This document shows, one piece after another, positions 3 through 8,807 of a DNA stretch of 64,000 nt. The stretch covers positions 5,346,501 to 5,410,500 of the forward strand of contig NZ_CP095413.1 of NCBI RefSeq assembly GCF_023016285.1. The letters run 5' to 3'. The stretch comes from Muricauda sp. SCSIO 64092 (GTDB lineage: Bacteria > Bacteroidota > Bacteroidia > Flavobacteriales > Flavobacteriaceae). The notes beneath the pieces are model-generated. The model was not told the origin of the DNA and searched no databases. It saw nothing but the letters and a program-made list of their open reading frames with translations. Position 1 is the first letter of the stretch. Each line of letters begins with the position of its first letter. The position numbers and the translations under genes are program-made.

Positions 3-2693
3 TTGGATGCTTTCCGAAAAGGACAGCAAATTGAGCAGGAAATCGATATCAAAGCGGAAAGGGGAGCTTACTTTGTTAATGCGGATATCGTTCTAAAACC
101 CAATGGCCAAAAAGATTGGATGTTGGTTGCCGAGGTAAACCAATCCAAAGCAGCTATTGCGGAAACTGCCCATCTGATCAAAACAAAAAAGAATCTTTTT
201 GATGTTATTCAAGACGATGTTGAAAAAGGATCGGCCCTTTTGCTGCAACTCAATGCAGCTGCTGATGGAATACAATTGACTGCGGATAAGCTCAGAAATA
301 CACGACATTTTTCCAATTCGCTTTTCAATATCATGCGGGGCGGAATTTTTGATGATGCCTATTCCATTGAAAAAGAGGACTTCATCACCTACATTCAAAA
401 AGCGAATACCGAAGTCTATCTGGAGAAATTGGATAAACTCCATGAACTTCCAGTAAACTTCGCCTATAGCGAGCTCAAGGCCATTGCGGATAATGATGAC
501 AATTCGGATTTTAGAAGGCTGGCGATGGAGTATATGCCGTTAAAGTTCAGTCGTAGGCATGGCGATCCCAGTCGCCCCTGGAACAGATTTTCCATCAATA
601 CGGAAAATGAAGACGGCAAAAAGATCCTGGATTACGAAGGTAACTGGCGGGATATCTTCCAAAACTGGGAAGCCTTGGCCCATTCCTACCCTGCTTTTAT
701 CGAAAGCATGATCTTCAAGTTTGTGAACGCCACTACTTTTGATGGATATAATCCCTATCGGGTGACCAAGGATGGTTTTGATTGGGAGATCATAGAACCG
801 GATGACCCATGGTCCTACATTGGCTATTGGGGCGATCACCAAATCATTTACCTGCTCAAATTTCTTGAGTTCATTGAGGATCACTACCCACAGCAACTGG
901 CATCCTATTTTAATGAGGACATTTTTACCTATGCCAATGTCCCCTACAGGATAAAAAATTATCAAGCAATACTTGAAAATCCAAAGGACACCATTGAATT
1001 TAATGAGGAACTGGATGCAAAAATCAATGAAGAACGCCAACAACTGGGTGCGGATGCCGCTTTATTGAAGGATACAAATAATAATATTTATAAGGTAAAC
1101 CTTCTGGAAAAATTATTGGCAACGGTACTCGCCAAAGTATCGAACTTTATTCCGGAAGGCGGTATCTGGATGAATACGCAACGTCCTGAATGGAACGATG
1201 CCAACAATGCTTTGGTGGGCAATGGCGTATCGATGGTTACTCTTTGTTACCTAAGACGATTCCTTCATTTTTTTGAAAAGGTGCTAAAGGATTCCGCTGA
1301 TACCGAATATCAGGTTTCGGAGGAACTCCTTCAATTCTTTAAAGCGAGCTGGGCTGCATTATCAGACAATTCATCCATGCTCTCAGGTGAAATTTCCAAT
1401 ACGGAAAGGAAGACCCTAATGGATGGATTGGGAAATTCCGGTAGTATTTACCGAAATACCATTTATGAAACAGGTTTTGGCGGTGAAAAGGCCGGGCTTA
1501 CCAAAGACCATCTCCTGCAATTTGTTCAAATCACCCTGAACTACCTGGAACATAGCATTGAAGCCAACAAAAGGCCGGATAATCTCTACCATGCCTACAA
1601 TCTGATGACGGTTGAAAACGACCATGAAGTCTCCATTTCCTATCTATCGGAAATGTTGGAGGGTCAAGTTGCCGTTTTGAGTTCGGGCTATATTTCGGGT
1701 AAAGCTTCCCTGGAACTTTTGGACGCATTAAAGCAAAGTGCCCTGTTCAGGCCGGACCAGTATAGCTATATTCTTTATCCGAATAAGGAATTGCCCCGTT
1801 TTTCCAATAAAAACAACATACCGACCAAAAAGATGGAGCAATCGGAGTTGGTACAAAAACTTTTGGAAGATGGAAATACGAAAATTGTTGAACAAACCAT
1901 CAATGGCAGCTATCATTTCAATGGCAATTTCAACAATGCCAATAGCTTAAAAGCGGCATTGAAAAGACTTCCGAAAGCATATGATGAATTGGTGGAGAAG
2001 GATACCCCACTATTGCTGGAGACTTTTGAACAGGTCTTTGACCATAAGGCATTTACCGGTCGTTCGGGAACTTTCTTTGGTTACGAAGGTTTGGGTTCCA
2101 TTTACTGGCATATGGTTTCCAAATTATTGTTGAGTGTCCAGGAAACGTGCCTGGCGGCTATTGAAAACAAGGAAAGTGCGGAGACCATAGGTCGATTATT
2201 GGAACACTATTATGAAATTAATGAGGGTATAGGGGTACACAAATCCCCTGAACTCTATGGCGCCTTTCCAACAGATCCCTATTCCCATACACCGGAGGGA
2301 AAAGGGGCCCAGCAACCAGGTATGACCGGTCAGGTAAAAGAGGACATCTTGAGCCGTTTTGGGGAGTTGGGTGTTTTTGTTCAAGACGGTGAATTGCTAT
2401 TTAAACCCCATTTACTGCGAAAAGAGGAGTTCTTGAAGCATTCCCAAACGTTCCAATACATAAATGTCAACAAGGAACCTAGGGAAATCCAACTGGAAGA
2501 AGGTTCACTTTGTTTTACCTATTGCCAAGTACCCGTTGTATATCAGTTATCCAAAAAAGAAGGGATTAAAATTATGTCCGGTGACCGTGCCATTCAGGAA
2601 AACGATGTACTGAAGCTTGACAAAGAAACAAGTGCTTTGATTTTCAATAGATCTGGCGATATCGATCGAATTATAGTTTCAATCCAAAAATAG
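3..2693 (+). CDS. GH149-type beta-1,3-glucan phosphorylase, 5' end outside window
   Basis: The frame is open to the window edge, so the true start lies upstream and 896 residues are visible. The protein resembles the large inverting phosphorylases of clan GH94/GH149, which split beta-1,3-glucan oligosaccharides with phosphate into glucose-1-phosphate. An aromatic-rich (alpha/alpha)6 barrel is evident. The stretch PEWNDANN holds Asp399, which fits the catalytic acid of the WND motif in GH94 phosphorylases. No signal peptide can be judged because the N-terminus is missing; GH149 enzymes are cytoplasmic and about 1,100 residues long, so roughly 200 residues should lie upstream. The next gene, a GH17 lipoprotein, starts 7 bases after the stop, and the whole downstream operon is beta-glucan specific, which supports GH149 over cellobiose phosphorylase. 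GH161 is the main alternative. Confidence 0.72.
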   Translation: MDAFRKGQQIEQEIDIKAERGAYFVNADIVLKPNGQKDWMLVAEVNQSKAAIAETAHLIKTKKNLFDVIQDDVEKGSALLLQLNAAADGIQLTADKLRNTRHFSNSLFNIMRGGIFDDAYSIEKEDFITYIQKANTEVYLEKLDKLHELPVNFAYSELKAIADNDDNSDFRRLAMEYMPLKFSRRHGDPSRPWNRFSINTENEDGKKILDYEGNWRDIFQNWEALAHSYPAFIESMIFKFVNATTFDGYNPYRVTKDGFDWEIIEPDDPWSYIGYWGDHQIIYLLKFLEFIEDHYPQQLASYFNEDIFTYANVPYRIKNYQAILENPKDTIEFNEELDAKINEERQQLGADAALLKDTNNNIYKVNLLEKLLATVLAKVSNFIPEGGIWMNTQRPEWNDANNALVGNGVSMVTLCYLRRFLHFFEKVLKDSADTEYQVSEELLQFFKASWAALSDNSSMLSGEISNTERKTLMDGLGNSGSIYRNTIYETGFGGEKAGLTKDHLLQFVQITLNYLEHSIEANKRPDNLYHAYNLMTVENDHEVSISYLSEMLEGQVAVLSSGYISGKASLELLDALKQSALFRPDQYSYILYPNKELPRFSNKNNIPTKKMEQSELVQKLLEDGNTKIVEQTINGSYHFNGNFNNANSLKAALKRLPKAYDELVEKDTPLLLETFEQVFDHKAFTGRSGTFFGYEGLGSIYWHMVSKLLLSVQETCLAAIENKESAETIGRLLEHYYEINEGIGVHKSPELYGAFPTDPYSHTPEGKGAQQPGMTGQVKEDILSRFGELGVFVQDGELLFKPHLLRKEEFLKHSQTFQYINVNKEPREIQLEEGSLCFTYCQVPVVYQLSKKEGIKIMSGDRAIQENDVLKLDKETSALIFNRSGDIDRIIVSIQK

Positions 2694-2700
2694 AATTCAG

Positions 2701-4005
2701 ATGAAGAACATTAAAATTAACATTGTACCCATTGTTTGCCTATTGTTTATTTTAACAATGTTCTCCTGTAAAAACAAGACCAACAACGAAAGCAAAACAG
2801 CTACTGTGAAAGAAGAACCGGTATTGAGTGCAAAGGATATTTTAGGAAACCCAAACTATTTGGCCATGTCCTACGGGGGATACAGACATGTGGACCATGG
2901 TATTGAGCCCACCCTGGATGAATTAAAAGAGGACATGAAAATTTTGGCCGCCATGGGAGTCGGGATCTTACGTACCTATAAAGTCCATTTACCCCATGCT
3001 TCCAATGTGTTAAAGGCAATCAGTGCACTAAAACAAGAAGATCCCAGCTTTGAAATGTATGTGATGCTCGGTGCTTGGATCGATTGTAAAAATGCTTGGA
3101 CCGACCAGGAGCCCGACCACTATCAAGAAAGCGAAAGAAACGCCATCGAAATTGCCGAAGCCGTCAGATTGGCCAATGCCTATCCCGATATCGTAAAAAT
3201 CGTGGCGGTAGGCAATGAGGCCATGGTAAAATGGGCCACAAGCTACTATGTGCAACCCGGGGTGATTTTAAAGTGGGTCAATCATTTACAGGACTTGAAA
3301 AAATCGGGAAAGCTATCCAAGGATTTATGGATTACGAGCTCTGACAATTTTGCATCCTGGGGCGGTGGCGATGCCGAATATCATGTTGAGGATTTGAATA
3401 AATTGATTAAGGCAGTGGACTTTCTTTCCGTACACACCTACCCCATGCACGATACCCACTACAACCCAGATTTCTGGGGAGTGCGTGAATCCGAAAAGGA
3501 ACTATCGGACCTTGAAAAGATTCATTCGGCTATGCTAAGATCCAAGGAATATGCGATGACACAATACCAAAGTGTGCATGATTATATGAAAAGCTTAGGT
3601 GTTGACAAACCTATACATATAGGTGAAACGGGCTGGGCCACTATTTCCAATGGGCATTACGGACCCAATGGCTCAAGGGCCACCGACGAGTATAAAGAAG
3701 CGGTGTTCCATGAGCACATAAGGGACTGGACCAATGCCGAAGGGATTTCGTGTTTTTATTTTGAAGGATTTGATGAACCCTGGAAGGACGCGAGGAATCC
3801 CAAGGGGTCCGAAAACCATTTTGGACTGTTCACCGTTGATGGGCAGGCAAAATACGCGCTCTGGAGTATGGTGGACCAGGGAACTTTCGAAGGGCTGAAA
3901 CGCAACGGTAACCCAATAATCAAAACATACGATGGCGATAAGGAAGCATTGTTGCAGGACGTATTGGTACCGCCCATGGCCAGTGAAACCAAAGTTCAAC
4001 AGTAA
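2701..4005 (+). CDS. GH17 beta-1,3-glucanase lipoprotein
   Basis: A 434-residue glycoside hydrolase family 17 protein. A lipoprotein signal ends at Cys23 (motif TMFSC), so it should be anchored to the outer or inner membrane facing the periplasm or outside. The barrel shows both GH17 glutamates: Glu173 in AVGNEA is the acid/base and Glu309 in IGETGW is the nucleophile. GH17 enzymes cut or transglycosylate beta-1,3-glucans such as laminarin. It follows the phosphorylase by 7 bases and precedes the GH30 lipoprotein by 24 bases, so the three are probably co-transcribed. It is about 130 residues longer than the two cytoplasmic GH17 domains downstream and lacks their shared N-terminal pattern, so it is a distinct subgroup rather than a recent copy. 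Confidence 0.88.
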   Translation: MKNIKINIVPIVCLLFILTMFSCKNKTNNESKTATVKEEPVLSAKDILGNPNYLAMSYGGYRHVDHGIEPTLDELKEDMKILAAMGVGILRTYKVHLPHASNVLKAISALKQEDPSFEMYVMLGAWIDCKNAWTDQEPDHYQESERNAIEIAEAVRLANAYPDIVKIVAVGNEAMVKWATSYYVQPGVILKWVNHLQDLKKSGKLSKDLWITSSDNFASWGGGDAEYHVEDLNKLIKAVDFLSVHTYPMHDTHYNPDFWGVRESEKELSDLEKIHSAMLRSKEYAMTQYQSVHDYMKSLGVDKPIHIGETGWATISNGHYGPNGSRATDEYKEAVFHEHIRDWTNAEGISCFYFEGFDEPWKDARNPKGSENHFGLFTVDGQAKYALWSMVDQGTFEGLKRNGNPIIKTYDGDKEALLQDVLVPPMASETKVQQ

Positions 4006-4029: not shown

Positions 4030-5526
4030 ATGAGAACATTGAACCATTGCATTTTTATCGCATTGACTATCGCTATGTTAGGGTGTAAGCAAAAACAGGA
4101 ATCCTTGGATGTAACCGTGTACGAAACCTCCGCCGCTGGAAATAAGCTGCAAAAAGTGGAAACGACCACTGTGGCTGGGAATGTAACATCCATACAACTT
4201 TTGCCCGATCAGGAGTATCAGACGATTACAGGGTTTGGGGGTTCGTTTACCGAGTCGTCTGCACATTTGTTGAACCAACTGGGCAAACAAAACCGAAACA
4301 AGGTTTTGGAAGCCTATTTTGGTGAAAACGGAGCAAGGTATTCGTTGACACGAACCCATATGAATTCCTGTGATTTCTCCTTAACCAATTACTCCTATGC
4401 CTCCGTAGATGGTGATATGGAGTTGGAACACTTTTCGATTGAGGAGGACAAAAATGATATCATTCCAATGATTAAGGAGGCCATGGCACTGTCCAAGGAT
4501 GGATTTAAAATCGTAAGCTCACCATGGACGGCACCCCCCTGGATGAAAGACAACAACGATTGGCGTGGAGGCAAACTGCTGCCCAAATATTACGATACTT
4601 GGGCCTTGTTCTTCTCCAAATACGTCGATGCCTATAAAGCTGAAGGGATTGATATTTGGGGTTTTACCGTAGAGAACGAACCTTTGGGCAATGACAATAA
4701 CTGGGAGAGCATGCACTTTACGCCCCAGGAAATGACACAGTTTGTGCAAAACCATTTGGGCCCGAAACTCGAAGCGGACGGTAAAGGTCATATTAAGGTT
4801 TTGGGGTACGATCAAAACCGGGAGCATTTGAAGGAATGGGTAGATGTCATGTATGTGGATGAAGCAGCCTCAAAATACTACGATGGTACAGCAATCCATT
4901 GGTATGCGAGTACCTATGAGGTTTTTCCGGAAGCACTTCAGTATGCCCATCAAAAAGCACCGAACAAGCATTTGATACAAACGGAAGCCTGTGTGGATGC
5001 CGAAATCCCAAAATGGAAGGATGATGCGTGGTACTGGTCCAAAGAAGCCACGGATTGGGGATGGGACTGGGCTCCGGAAGCAGATAAAAAATACCATCCT
5101 AAATATGTGCCCGTATATCGTTATGCCAGGGACATTATAGGTTGTTTAAATAACTGGGTAGACGGTTGGATAGATTGGAATATGGTCCTTGACCGCCAGG
5201 GAGGTCCCAATTGGTTCAAGAATTGGTGTGTTGCGCCGGTCATTGTAGATCCCGAAAAGGATGAAATCTATTTTACGCCCTTATACCATACCCTGGCGCA
5301 TTTTAGCAAATACATAAGGCCCGGGGCCAAAAGGATTGGGTTCAATACTACGGATGGTTCCCTATTGGTCACGGCAGCAAAAAATCCCGACGGGACAATA
5401 GCAGTAGTGCTTTTGAATATGGATACCGACCCGAAAAACGTGGAGTTATCCATGGATGGCCGTTCACAGCAGGTGGAAATCAGTTCGCAAGCTATTCAGA
5501 CCCTGTTGGTCAAACAACTAAATTAA
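4030..5526 (+). CDS. GH30 beta-glucanase/beta-glucosidase lipoprotein
   Basis: A 498-residue GH30 protein with a lipobox cysteine at residue 19 (IAMLGC). Family marks are GFGGSFTESSA near the N-terminus of the barrel, Glu217 in TVENEP (acid/base) and Glu319 in IQTEAC (nucleophile). A C-terminal beta-domain follows, typical of GH30 (clan GH-A with side beta-sandwich). In marine Flavobacteriia GH30 proteins beside GH17 remove beta-1,6-linked glucose branches from laminarin, which leaves a linear beta-1,3 chain for GH17. Context here fits that role, but glucosylceramidase-like or other beta-glucosidase activity cannot be excluded from sequence alone. The stop lies 16 bases before the transporter fusion. 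Confidence 0.87.
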   Translation: MRTLNHCIFIALTIAMLGCKQKQESLDVTVYETSAAGNKLQKVETTTVAGNVTSIQLLPDQEYQTITGFGGSFTESSAHLLNQLGKQNRNKVLEAYFGENGARYSLTRTHMNSCDFSLTNYSYASVDGDMELEHFSIEEDKNDIIPMIKEAMALSKDGFKIVSSPWTAPPWMKDNNDWRGGKLLPKYYDTWALFFSKYVDAYKAEGIDIWGFTVENEPLGNDNNWESMHFTPQEMTQFVQNHLGPKLEADGKGHIKVLGYDQNREHLKEWVDVMYVDEAASKYYDGTAIHWYASTYEVFPEALQYAHQKAPNKHLIQTEACVDAEIPKWKDDAWYWSKEATDWGWDWAPEADKKYHPKYVPVYRYARDIIGCLNNWVDGWIDWNMVLDRQGGPNWFKNWCVAPVIVDPEKDEIYFTPLYHTLAHFSKYIRPGAKRIGFNTTDGSLLVTAAKNPDGTIAVVLLNMDTDPKNVELSMDGRSQQVEISSQAIQTLLVKQLN

Positions 5527-5541
5527 TCAAACCGAAAAATT

Positions 5542-7896
5542 ATGAGTGAAGCCATGAGTACCACAGCAAAAGTGCCCTTTGGGCAAAAAGTAGCTTTTGG
5601 AGTTGGAATGTTTGCCAACCAAATGTTCCCTGCCATTCTTGGAATTTTTATGGTGGTCCTTGTACAATCATTTGGATTTAATGGGTGGTTGTGGTCCTTG
5701 GTCTATTTTTTCCCTAGGATTTTTGATTCCATAACCGATCCCATTATGGGATTCATATCGGACAATACGAAATCCAAATGGGGTAGACGTAAGCAGTACG
5801 TGCTAATTGGTGGACTTCTTATGGGGATAGCGTTTACCTTGATGTGGCAATTGTATTCGGACAATACCTTGCAATATAATTTTTGGTATTTCTTTTTATG
5901 GTCCATTGTATTTTATCTGGGGCTCACTTTTTTTAGTGTACCCTATGTGGCCATGGGTTATGAAATGAGCGATGATTTTCATGAACGGACCAACATTATG
6001 GCCGTGGCTCAATGGATTGGCCAATGGGCTTGGGTCATTGCCCCCTGGTTTTGGGTAATCATGGATGACCCGGATTGGTTTCCAAACCAAGAAATAGCTG
6101 TTCGTGAATTGGCCGTTTGGGTGGCCATTCCTTGTGCGATTGCGGCGATGGTACCAGCCATATTCATTAAAAGTAAATCGACCCTTGATGAAGATTATGA
6201 GCCATTGAACGTGGCCAATATTGGGGGTAGTCTCAAGAAAATTATAAGTAGTTTCAAAGATGCCTTTAAACTAGCGGAATTTAGAAGGATCTGTGGTGCC
6301 ACGTTTTTGATTTTCAATGCCTTTAACACCGTGGCCGCCCTAACTTATTTTGTCATTGTTTATAGATTGTTCAATGGTGATGCGGTTGCCACTGGTATTT
6401 GGGTTGCCCTTTTCGGATGCATAGGAGCGTTGGGCACAACGTTTATCGTAATTCCTTTGGTTACCTGGATGTCAAAAATAATGGGTAAAAAGAAGGCGTT
6501 TATGTGGGCCCAAGCCATTTCAATTGTTGGTTATGTCATGATGTATTTCCTCTTTATACCCGGAAAACCGTGGTTGTACATCATTGCACTGCCCTTTTTC
6601 TCTTTTGGGATAGGGAGTTTGTTTACCATTATGATGTCCATGACAGCCGATGTCATCGATATAGATGAGCTCAATTCAGGTAAACGTAGGGAAGGTATCT
6701 TTGGTGCCATTTACTGGTGGATGGTCAAAGTGGGCTTTGCCATAGCCGGTGCGCTTAGTGGGGTAATTATTGGTATTGTTGGCTTTAACCCGGATTTGGT
6801 CACCACCGAACAACAGGGGGCAGTTGATGGGCTTCATGCATTTTTCTGCTTCTTTCCTATGGTAGGTACCCTATTTGCCATGTTGATTATGAAGAATTAC
6901 GATGTTTCCGAGGAGCGCGCAAATGAAATACGTGCGAAATTGGAAAAGCGTAAGAACAAGCCAGCCGAAAAACTGACTTCGTACTACCAAACGGACAAGC
7001 TACATTCGCTAGCTACCATGGACCTAAATGTCCAGTCAAAGACGGATATCGACTTCCTGGGAAAAACGGATGCCGAAATCAGAAAGATATTTTCAAAATC
7101 GCTGACCACCGGACTTCATGGACTTTGCTTCAGTCCGTATTTGGAAGGTCAGGATATTGGTGATTCCCTGTCGGAAGCACAGATACGGCAACGGATGGAG
7201 GTCATTTTCCCCTACACCAAATGGGTCCGCTCTTTTTCCTGTACGGAAGGAAATGAGTTTATTCCCCACATCGCCCATGAAAAAGGCTTAAAAACAATGG
7301 TTGGGGCTTGGATCGGAAGTGATAAAAAAGAAAATGAAAAGGAAATCAAGGCCCTTATTGACCTGGCCACAAAGGGACAGGTTGATATCGCCGTAGTAGG
7401 CAATGAAGCCTTAATGCGGAATGAGGTCACAAAGCAGGAGATTCTGGATTATATCCGCCATGTCAAAAAAGCACTGCCGAACGTTCCGGTCGGTTATGTG
7501 GACGCTTATTATCAATTTCTTGAAAACCCGGAATTGATAGATGCCTGCGATGTGGTTTTGGTCAATTGTTATCCATTCTGGGAAGGATGCGATATTCAGT
7601 ATGCGGCGACTTATTTAAAACAAATGTACACGGTAACCAAAAATGCCGCAGCAGAAAAACCTGTGATCATTACGGAAACGGGCTGGCCCGATCAGGGTAC
7701 AAATACCGGGGCAGCGGAACCTTCCTCCACAAATGCGATGAAATACTTCATTAACAGTGGTAATTGGGCCACTCAAGAGGGAATCCCCATGTTTTATTTC
7801 TCATCCTTTGATGAGTCCTGGAAAGTGCACCATGAGGGGGATGTTGGGGAACGTTGGGGAATTTGGAATAAAAATGAACAACTAAAATATCAATAG
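5542..7896 (+). CDS. MFS/GPH sugar symporter fused to a C-terminal GH17 domain
   Basis: One uninterrupted 784-residue frame holds two proteins. Residues about 1-450 form a 12-helix GPH-type sugar:cation symporter of the MFS, with the family's DSITDPIMGFISD motif after helix 2. A charged linker of about 50 residues (rich in Lys/Glu, near 455-500) leads into a full GH17 domain, about residues 505-784. Glu622 in VVGNEA and Glu712 in IITETGW are the two catalytic glutamates. The even helix count puts the C-terminus in the cytoplasm, so the domain should meet incoming beta-1,3-oligosaccharides as they leave the carrier. The following gene is a free GH17 very similar to this domain (shared TKWVRSFSC and FYFSSFDESWK), with only 2 bases between. 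A paired duplication and fusion is likely; no frameshift or stop is seen at the joint. Confidence 0.9.
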   Translation: MSEAMSTTAKVPFGQKVAFGVGMFANQMFPAILGIFMVVLVQSFGFNGWLWSLVYFFPRIFDSITDPIMGFISDNTKSKWGRRKQYVLIGGLLMGIAFTLMWQLYSDNTLQYNFWYFFLWSIVFYLGLTFFSVPYVAMGYEMSDDFHERTNIMAVAQWIGQWAWVIAPWFWVIMDDPDWFPNQEIAVRELAVWVAIPCAIAAMVPAIFIKSKSTLDEDYEPLNVANIGGSLKKIISSFKDAFKLAEFRRICGATFLIFNAFNTVAALTYFVIVYRLFNGDAVATGIWVALFGCIGALGTTFIVIPLVTWMSKIMGKKKAFMWAQAISIVGYVMMYFLFIPGKPWLYIIALPFFSFGIGSLFTIMMSMTADVIDIDELNSGKRREGIFGAIYWWMVKVGFAIAGALSGVIIGIVGFNPDLVTTEQQGAVDGLHAFFCFFPMVGTLFAMLIMKNYDVSEERANEIRAKLEKRKNKPAEKLTSYYQTDKLHSLATMDLNVQSKTDIDFLGKTDAEIRKIFSKSLTTGLHGLCFSPYLEGQDIGDSLSEAQIRQRMEVIFPYTKWVRSFSCTEGNEFIPHIAHEKGLKTMVGAWIGSDKKENEKEIKALIDLATKGQVDIAVVGNEALMRNEVTKQEILDYIRHVKKALPNVPVGYVDAYYQFLENPELIDACDVVLVNCYPFWEGCDIQYAATYLKQMYTVTKNAAAEKPVIITETGWPDQGTNTGAAEPSSTNAMKYFINSGNWATQEGIPMFYFSSFDESWKVHHEGDVGERWGIWNKNEQLKYQ

Positions 7897-7898
7897 AA

Positions 7899-8807
7899 AT
7901 GTCATACAGGGAAGGCCATCAGTTTTCACGGGCAAAGCATAATTTCACCGAATACGCTGGGGTTGATTTCAGCAAAATTTCCGACGAGGAATTACGGGCA
8001 TTGTGGTTGGAAACACTTCAAAACGGAATGCATGGTATTTGCTTTAGCATGTATGAAGATGGGCAAAAACCGGGCGATATCATTACCGAAGAACAAGTGG
8101 AACGACGAATCCAAATCCTTAAACCCTTTACCAAATGGGTACGTTCGTTTTCCTGCATTGAGGGAAACGAGCATGTACCTCGCATTGCCCATAAAAATGG
8201 ACTCCAAACTTTGGTAGGTGCCTGGTTAAGTGACGATTTGGAAGCCAATGAAAAGGAAATAAATGCATTGATCCAATTGGCCAGCGAAGGTTGTGTTACC
8301 ATAGCGGCAGTGGGCAATGAGGTGCTCTACAGGAATGAACTTAATGAAGAACAACTACTGGGCTATCTCAACAGGGTAAAAGAAGCCATACCGGGTATTC
8401 CCGTAGGCTATGTTGATGCCTACTACGAGTTTACGAACCATCCAAAGATTACGGAAACCTGTGATGTTATCCTCTCCAATTGCTATCCGTATTGGGAAGG
8501 TTGCCCCATAGAGTATTCCCTGAACCATATGCAACAAATGTATGGGCAGGCCGTTGATGCCGCAAATGGGAAAAAAGTAATCATCACGGAAACCGGATGG
8601 CCAAGTGAAGGGAGCAGCCTAAGGGGAGCTGTTTCCTCAGCAGAAAATGCAATGAAATACTTCACCAATACCCAGGTATGGTCGGCCAAGGCCAACATTG
8701 AGGTGTTCTATTTCTCATCATTTGACGAATCTTGGAAAACCGGGGATGAGGGGGATGTTGGTGCCTATTGGGGACTTTGGGACAAACATGAAAAACTAAA
8801 GTTTTAG
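7899..8807 (+). CDS. Cytoplasmic GH17 beta-1,3-glucan hydrolase
   Basis: A 302-residue GH17 protein without signal peptide, so presumably cytoplasmic. Catalytic residues are Glu141 in AVGNEV and Glu231 in ITETGWP. It is closely related along its whole length to the C-terminal domain of the preceding transporter fusion, including the segments TKWVRSFSC, PVGYVDAYY and FYFSSFDESWK. The start is 2 bases after the fusion's stop, so translation is probably coupled. Expected role: shorten imported laminari-oligosaccharides, or transglycosylate them, before phosphorolysis by the GH149-type enzyme at the head of the operon. It is the last gene of the glucan cluster within the window; 302 bases without a gene follow. 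Confidence 0.88.
   Translation: MSYREGHQFSRAKHNFTEYAGVDFSKISDEELRALWLETLQNGMHGICFSMYEDGQKPGDIITEEQVERRIQILKPFTKWVRSFSCIEGNEHVPRIAHKNGLQTLVGAWLSDDLEANEKEINALIQLASEGCVTIAAVGNEVLYRNELNEEQLLGYLNRVKEAIPGIPVGYVDAYYEFTNHPKITETCDVILSNCYPYWEGCPIEYSLNHMQQMYGQAVDAANGKKVIITETGWPSEGSSLRGAVSSAENAMKYFTNTQVWSAKANIEVFYFSSFDESWKTGDEGDVGAYWGLWDKHEKLKF

Follow-up and report, generated by a model that had tools for sequence, protein, structure and literature searches.

Muricauda sp. SCSIO 64092 (Flavobacteriaceae) encodes a 784-amino-acid protein that we take to be an inner-membrane importer of β-1,3-gluco-oligosaccharides, probably cation-coupled, with a working cytoplasmic hydrolase of family GH17 attached by a short flexible tether. 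(We put the probability of this reading at roughly 72%.) The gene lies at 5542–7896 of the 64,000-nucleotide stretch that we analyzed, or "the window" (positions 5,346,501 to 5,410,500 of the forward strand of NZ_CP095413.1, assembly GCF_023016285.1). We infer the substrate of the carrier, the exo-activity of the fused GH17, and the activity of a free GH17 encoded just downstream from their homologs. Laminarin is a major algal carbon store, and the fusion protein would stand at the entry point of its fragments into the cell.

The architecture, and the idea that it couples hydrolysis to uptake, have been in print since 2018. In the accessible part of their paper, Unfried et al. (PMC6246565) describe a 12-transmembrane MFS protein joined to GH17 in Formosa (FORMB_24740 or FbGH17b). 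They report that FbGH17b converts oligosaccharides to glucose, call the fusion common in marine Flavobacteriia, and suggest that hydrolysis and uptake are coupled. We found no test of this coupling in the accessible text of that paper or elsewhere in the literature that we searched. The window's gene adds a further example. The part worth following is the recurrence of such fusions on distant carriers.

The fusion is a single intact gene

As a sequence-only reading of this DNA had proposed, an importer and a GH17 share one frame. We confirm this observation, and the interpretation offered with it is partly supported. The frame begins with ATG, runs for 784 codons without an internal stop, and ends with TAG at 7894–7896; it is thus open between residues 455 and 505, where a break would speak against a fusion. 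When the whole protein was compared to Pfam, both parts scored above the cut-offs. MFS_2 (PF13347) matches residues 19–456 (E = 3.5e-61; 207.5 bits vs. a cut-off of 27) across its full length (positions 2–426 of 427). GH17 matches residues 696–784 (E = 5.4e-12; 46.4 bits vs. a cut-off of 28.2), in a match confined to the final third of the profile (213–303 of 306). Despite this partial match, the GH17 domain is complete, as the sequence-only reading held, because phmmer aligns residues 549–766 to 4WTP, a GH17 enzyme of known structure (E = 4.2e-28), and because the AlphaFold model of the fusion matches 4WTP/4WTR over 266 residues (target template modeling (TM) score 0.86). By sequence, alignment, and model, both catalytic glutamates are at the residues that had been proposed, and they lie on a TIM barrel: E622 is in a GNE motif and E712 is in an ETGWP motif. 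E712 aligns with the glutamate of ISETGWP in 4WTP, which is alanine in the active-site mutant 4WTR. Among solved structures, the carrier is nearest to MelB, and the enzyme is nearest to the β-1,3-glucanosyltransferase of Rhizomucor miehei (4WTP).

The fusion is not due to chance and is not an artifact of assembly or a frameshift: the genome was assembled as one contig of 5.69 Mb, and among the 120 best database matches listed, 118 have both Pfam domains. (The remaining 2 are labeled as partial.)

A MelB-like carrier that should hold the enzyme in the cytoplasm

When we compared the fusion model to solved structures with Foldseek, the top hit was MelB (7L16; target TM score 0.80, with 17% identity in the structural alignment). 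D62 and D66 of the carrier align with Asp55 and Asp59 of MelB (replaced by Cys in the structures of D55C and D59C), and both are invariant in a 61-sequence alignment (A2). Because these residues match the cation-site aspartates of MelB, and because they are invariant, the carrier half is probably a cation-coupled symporter, with transport predicted from sequence. In both its fold and its cation site, it resembles the melibiose:cation symporter MelB (7L16, 4M64), which, unlike the window's protein, has no enzyme domain. Against the NCBIfam model for gph (TIGR00792), the carrier scores 175.2 bits, which does not reach the cut-off of 231.35, though the match is full length. We therefore describe the carrier as MelB-like, or MFS_2, from a divergent GPH-like branch, and not as a certified member of gph.

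The predicted topology has both the N and C termini inside, so the GH17 domain should face the cytoplasm. The AlphaFold2 model has twelve membrane-type helices, the number that the sequence-only reading had counted, and with loop boundaries set by hand, the even loops, which would face inside, hold 25 lysines and arginines up to residue 475, vs. 1 in the odd loops. A hydropathy plot (cut-off 1.2) gave ten peaks, missing helices 2 and 5, and showed no hydrophobic stretch between residues 455 and 505. No signal peptide is evident by eye. By prediction, then, the enzyme is on the side of the membrane that had been proposed.

Alternatively, the GH17 domain might be periplasmic and supply monosaccharide to the carrier. 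In its accessible part, PMC6246565 does mention two enzymes, not named there, as likely residents of the periplasm. We consider this placement of the fused domain very improbable, given the twelve helices, the skew in charged residues, the MelB fold, and the lack of an additional hydrophobic stretch before the GH17 domain.

The fused and free GH17s probably do different jobs

The sequence-only reading had noticed a free relative of the fused domain 2 bases downstream. This gene does begin at 7899, 2 bases past the stop codon of the fusion; the two GH17s are 51% identical over 296 amino acids, and no signal peptide is evident by eye on the free protein. To compare the two types more broadly, we collected 100 fused and 132 free GH17 sequences, with duplicates removed. 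(Of 154 GH17 frames without a carrier, 6 were dropped because they were cut at the edge of a locus or were over 420 amino acids.) Both catalytic glutamates are conserved in all 100 fused domains and in all 132 free ones. In a quick tree of 141 representatives, one side holds 71 of the 72 fused rows and none of the 69 free rows. By this tree, the fused and free GH17s are two old paralogous lineages.

The two types tend to differ at a site that is linked to transglycosylation. MlGH17B from Muricauda lutaonensis is a free GH17, predicted to be cytoplasmic, that acts as a glucanosyltransglycosylase; its gene follows GH17A, GH30, and an MFS gene (PMC11005184 and PMC13188888, in the parts available). 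According to the accessible text of PMC11005184, Tyr136 of MlGH17B is linked to transglycosylation, and FbGH17B has methionine instead. In the window, the corresponding column (625) is Met in the fused copy vs. Tyr in the free copy. The free gene has the equivalents of Tyr136, Trp191, and Glu192 (in GNEVLYR and YWEG; columns 625, 680, and 681), so at this site it is like MlGH17B. The fused domain lacks the tyrosine and keeps the tryptophan and the glutamate. Because of this difference, the window's two GH17s probably differ in their jobs, and by sequence the free GH17 looks like a transglycosylase and not a redundant copy. As a pair, they offer a contrast of hydrolase and transglycosylase at one residue of the aglycone site.

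Across the collection, column 625 is L in 61, M in 19, Y in 9, H in 6, Q in 3, and F in 2 of the 100 fused domains, and Y in 120 and L in 12 of the 132 free proteins. A strict rule, with Met or Leu if fused and Tyr if free, is ruled out by exceptions in both directions. These counts are not independent, and the switch at this site falls inside the fused part of the tree, because in the 141-row tree, a fused subclade of 61 rows has no Tyr at this position while its sister of 10 rows retains Tyr or Phe.

We infer that the fused domain is an exo-β-1,3-glucosidase, both from its homolog and from Met625. The window's fusion is like FORMB_24740/FbGH17b of Formosa sp. Hel1_33_131 in its architecture, in its type of laminarin cluster, and in having Met at the Tyr136 site (by the accessible parts of the papers cited above). 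The fusion in locus L015 also has Met at 625, and its MFS and GH17 parts are 69% and 68% identical to the window's. If the fused GH17 were instead mainly a transglycosylase, it would lengthen imported chains, which would then be trapped and fed to a GH149 phosphorylase. In this direction point the nearest solved relatives, which are β-1,3-glucanosyltransferases (4WTP), the aglycone-site residues W680 and E681, which all 100 fused domains share, and the Tyr or Phe of the 10-row subclade. However, the window's fused copy carries Met in place of this Tyr, as does FbGH17B, which is reported to give glucose, although the accessible text of PMC11005184 leaves room for an undetected transglycosylase activity of FbGH17B. 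We think that hydrolysis is the main activity and that the transglycosylase alternative is quite unlikely.

Fused GH17s arose or re-formed on different carriers

In a 64-row GH17 tree, the fused state must have changed at least three times, and a single change is enough in 0% of 200 bootstrap trees. Fused GH17s were found on three lineages of transporters.

In one case (locus L157 from genome G337, which is Balneolaceae-like; fusion at 541–3003), a free-type GH17 is joined to a window-type carrier. L157 is placed inside a free clade at 100/100 in the careful 64-row tree, the MSFREE start of the free gene is still readable in frame, and the linker is the longest in the set. A single origin for all fused GH17s, including L157, was not rejected by an approximately unbiased test on a 41-row subset (p = 0.074), in contrast to the placement of L157 in the 64-row tree.

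Another lineage is proteobacterial. The fused GH17 of G879 groups with free genes from Burkholderiales (98/95) and is on a different carrier; the top database match to this protein is 100% identical and is named Paucibacter sp. KBW04 (P0245). The carrier of G879 is 71% identical to that of G891; between the G891 carrier and the window's, identity is about 20%. In G891 and G815, this second carrier is joined to a GH17 that is more distant (43%) and whose long branch (1.55) makes its placement unsure. The second lineage is large: among the 120 best matches listed for it (P0245–P0364), all have both Pfam domains, and a motif search found Leu at the Tyr site and ETGWP in 120/120. Fusions of GPH and GH17 from this second family are at L176 (4777–7266), L177 (7137–9557), and L178 (4509–6917), from Paucibacter and from metagenome-assembled genomes (MAGs) labeled as Halothiobacillus and Steroidobacteraceae. 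A third branch of carriers, which are 39–48% identical to the window's, is mostly unfused, with fused GH17s in L042, L044, and L152. The literature that we searched, which most subscription papers lie outside of, held no mention of a second carrier lineage or of repeated origins.

The changes on the GH17 tree and the three transporter lineages, along with the scarcity of fused-side GH17s as free proteins (0 of the 69 free rows in the quick tree), argue for selection for the joint. We see about an even chance that the fusion is a recurrent design, in which a β-1,3-glucan GH17 was joined to the cytoplasmic C terminus of a GPH-like carrier at least three times (in the window's family, in L157, and in the proteobacterial lineage), and that this implies a real gain. 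If so, possible gains include keeping the concentration of imported sugar low at the exit of the carrier, or a choice between hydrolysis and a cytosolic route via transglycosylase and phosphorylase.

How common is the fusion?

The sequence-only reading had proposed a count of this architecture across the Flavobacteriaceae. In our sample of 299 genomes, for which the listed matches give lower bounds, at least 23 genomes have an intact fusion: 20 come from the 29 full-length read-through matches, and three others (G147, G060, and G295) have a divergent carrier. (This count leaves out G108, which is partial at a contig edge, and the stop-containing frames of G008, G110, and G269.) In other words, the two parts are not always separate genes, the outcome that would have told against the proposal, yet separate genes are common.

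In a sample of the phylum, 16 of 392 genomes have intact fusions; four genomes (G000, G134, G147, and G295) belong to both samples. Around a Hydrogenophaga genome, we found 5 window-type and 3 second-type fusions among 299 genomes of its family (which we label as Burkholderiaceae). In a class-wide sample of 370 genomes around the same genome, the window type was found only in the center genome, and the second type was detectable only as a match to GH17. Among named loci, 69 of 80 have a fused frame, but these are the best 80 of 553 and were picked with a fused query. They include loci from Algoriphagus, Winogradskyella, Flavobacterium, Phaeodactylibacter, Balneolaceae, Rubrivivax, and Hydrogenophaga. 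GH17-MFS fusions are also in most of the expressed variant-1 polysaccharide utilization loci for laminarin in MAGs from blooms, including the gammaproteobacterial SAR92, Luminiphilus, and SAR86 (PMC10108472). Unlike the window's gene, those fusions are from marine MAGs, and the accessible part of that paper does not mention carrier subfamilies, the free paralog, or repeated origins. The accessible parts of PMC11345257, PMC8371827, PMC12175321, and PMC6298971 contain no mention of a carrier-GH17 fusion, and PMC4071793 has no bearing on the question.

Some longer frames turned out not to be fusions. Frames of 1025–1045 amino acids looked like three-domain fusions, but calling open reading frames showed separate genes in all five loci that we examined (L035–L039). 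Similarly, a 755-amino-acid frame in L186, which lies upstream of a free GH17, is noise.

Is the tether more than a read-through?

The joint fits the loss of a stop codon between two abutting genes, because Ser480 aligns with the start Met of the free GH17s (this column is Ser in 60 of the 100 fused domains and Met in 118 of the 132 free proteins) and because unfused carriers mostly terminate near this point (8 tails inspected). The same arrangement persists in split relatives. The offset of the linker is 12–27 in 99 of 100 fusions and 45 in L157.

These features are also what we would expect if the tether had no kinetic role: a neutral read-through of abutting genes could have fixed expression at 1:1, with the carrier and the enzyme acting independently. 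Split genes occupy the same place in many relatives, the stretch before Ser480 is the carrier's own tail, as stop-codon loss predicts, and the linker is of low confidence and variable in length. But the joint was made or re-made on at least three occasions, with the two parts in the same order each time and on carriers that are distant from one another; the fused-side GH17 is rarely free; and the catalytic residues are intact in 100 of 100 fusions. We therefore view a tether without a kinetic role as unlikely. If tethering does bring a benefit, we think that a high local concentration of enzyme at the carrier, which would keep imported sugar low, is more likely than strict channeling.

As to whether the enzyme is docked at the exit of the carrier, AlphaFold2 (run with 61 sequences) gave two good domains without a confident arrangement, so docking is neither supported nor excluded.

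Several observations weigh against our reading of the protein as a tethered importer-hydrolase. First, the model has an overall predicted TM score of 0.62, its predicted local distance difference test score (pLDDT) is below 50 at residues 473–481, and there is no confident packing of carrier and enzyme. Second, among the listed Flavobacteriaceae matches, 9 of the 29 full-length read-through matches are two separate genes, and of the two other genomes from the window's genus in that sample, G289 has the split form (L017/L049) and G139 gave no match. Third, in an 80-row tree of carriers, the fused label changes 16 times, and at least 9 of these changes are forced by starred branches, so the joint is dispensable and is readily gained and lost. 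Fourth, the signature at column 625 is leaky, with Tyr in 9/100 fused and Leu in 12/132 free. Finally, P0185 (303 amino acids, on a 38 kb contig and not labeled as partial) is apparently a complete, free-standing protein on the fused side of the tree. The idea that the fused type of GH17 is never free is ruled out by P0185. Among the 120 short matches listed, 56 had no detected carrier part; 54 of these were at least 250 amino acids, of which 20 fell with the fused rows and 34 with the free rows, and many of the 20 look like fragments at contig edges.

With the natural sets among these relatives (fused, split, and fused to a different carrier), one could measure directly whether a secondary transporter gains kinetically from having an enzyme tethered to it.

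A laminarin cluster and a proposed route for its fragments

The fusion lies in a laminarin cluster of the type described in PMC6246565 and PMC13188888, judging from their accessible parts (Table 1). As for FbGH17b, an N-terminal MFS part and a C-terminal GH17 share a frame in a cluster with GH17A and GH30. The GH30 scores 265 bits against the NCBIfam model for endo-1,6-β-glucanase, under the cut-off of 700. The phosphorylase that the sequence-only reading had invoked is present and is of GH149 type (1218 bits to 6HQ6), and its frame begins upstream of the window (L004, 17229). Farther upstream (L004, 5749–17134), there are a PKD protein, a GH16, a GH2, a Y_Y_Y/GerE regulator, and a 460-amino-acid protein without a match in Pfam or PHROGs. 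We did not recognize SusC or SusD among the 7 of 9 upstream frames of at least 200 amino acids that were scanned.

Table 1. Features of the fusion gene and of the neighboring genes, in window coordinates
Feature	Positions	Strand	Evidence
GH149-type β-1,3-oligosaccharide phosphorylase, cut by the window edge	3..2693	+	phmmer to 6HQ6, 1218 bits
GH17A, laminarinase-like, lipobox-like MFSC by eye	2701..4005	+	phmmer to 6FCG (FbGH17A), E = 9.4e-198
GH30, β-1,6-glucanase-like, lipobox-like MLGC by eye	4030..5526	+	Pfam GH30, E = 9.8e-77
Transporter half, residues 1–470	5542..6951	+	GPH/MFS_2 symporter, 12 transmembrane helices, predicted N-in/C-in
Linker, residues 471–487, after the carrier's C-terminal helix	6952..7002	+	pLDDT < 50 at 473–481; column 480
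Fused GH17 domain, residues 488–784	7003..7893	+	Pfam, phmmer, alignment, tree, fold match
Glu622, catalytic acid/base (GNE)	7405..7407	+	Alignment
Met625, site of MlGH17B Tyr136	7414..7416	+	Alignment column; Tyr role from accessible part of PMC11005184
Glu712, catalytic nucleophile (ETGWP)	7675..7677	+	Alignment to 4WTP/4WTR
Free GH17, 302 amino acids, MlGH17B-like, Tyr (8328–8330) at the transglycosylation site	7899..8807	+	Alignment, tree

We propose that GH30 and GH17A, which are probable lipoproteins outside the cytoplasm, would debranch and cut laminarin, and that the carrier half of the fusion would bring the resulting oligosaccharides in. The tethered GH17 would trim the entering chains, probably releasing glucose as FbGH17b does. 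In the cytosol, the free GH17, with its transglycosylation tyrosine, probably disproportionates oligosaccharides, and the GH149 phosphorylase would act on the remainder. The sequence-only reading had the fused enzyme handing short chains to the phosphorylase. We do not favor this, because the characterized fused homolog gave glucose (in the accessible part of PMC6246565), and releasing glucose would compete with phosphorolysis.

In E. coli, the use of maltodextrins involves a disproportionating transferase, a phosphorylase, and a glucosidase, which act on imported chains. The window's genes may form a set that resembles this one, with the glucosidase tied to the carrier.

GH17 is also joined to another membrane protein that handles sugars. 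In two frames that we checked from Gammaproteobacteria (L192 and L194), GH17 is fused to GT2. These proteins differ from the window's in their partner, which is a GT2 synthase, in their GH17, which is N-terminal and distant (197–199 bits to A1), and in their direction, which is biosynthetic.

A third GH17-like gene, of about 316 amino acids and 28–34% identical to GH17A, accompanies the GH17 pair in many loci (L016, L057, L066, L083, L109, and others).
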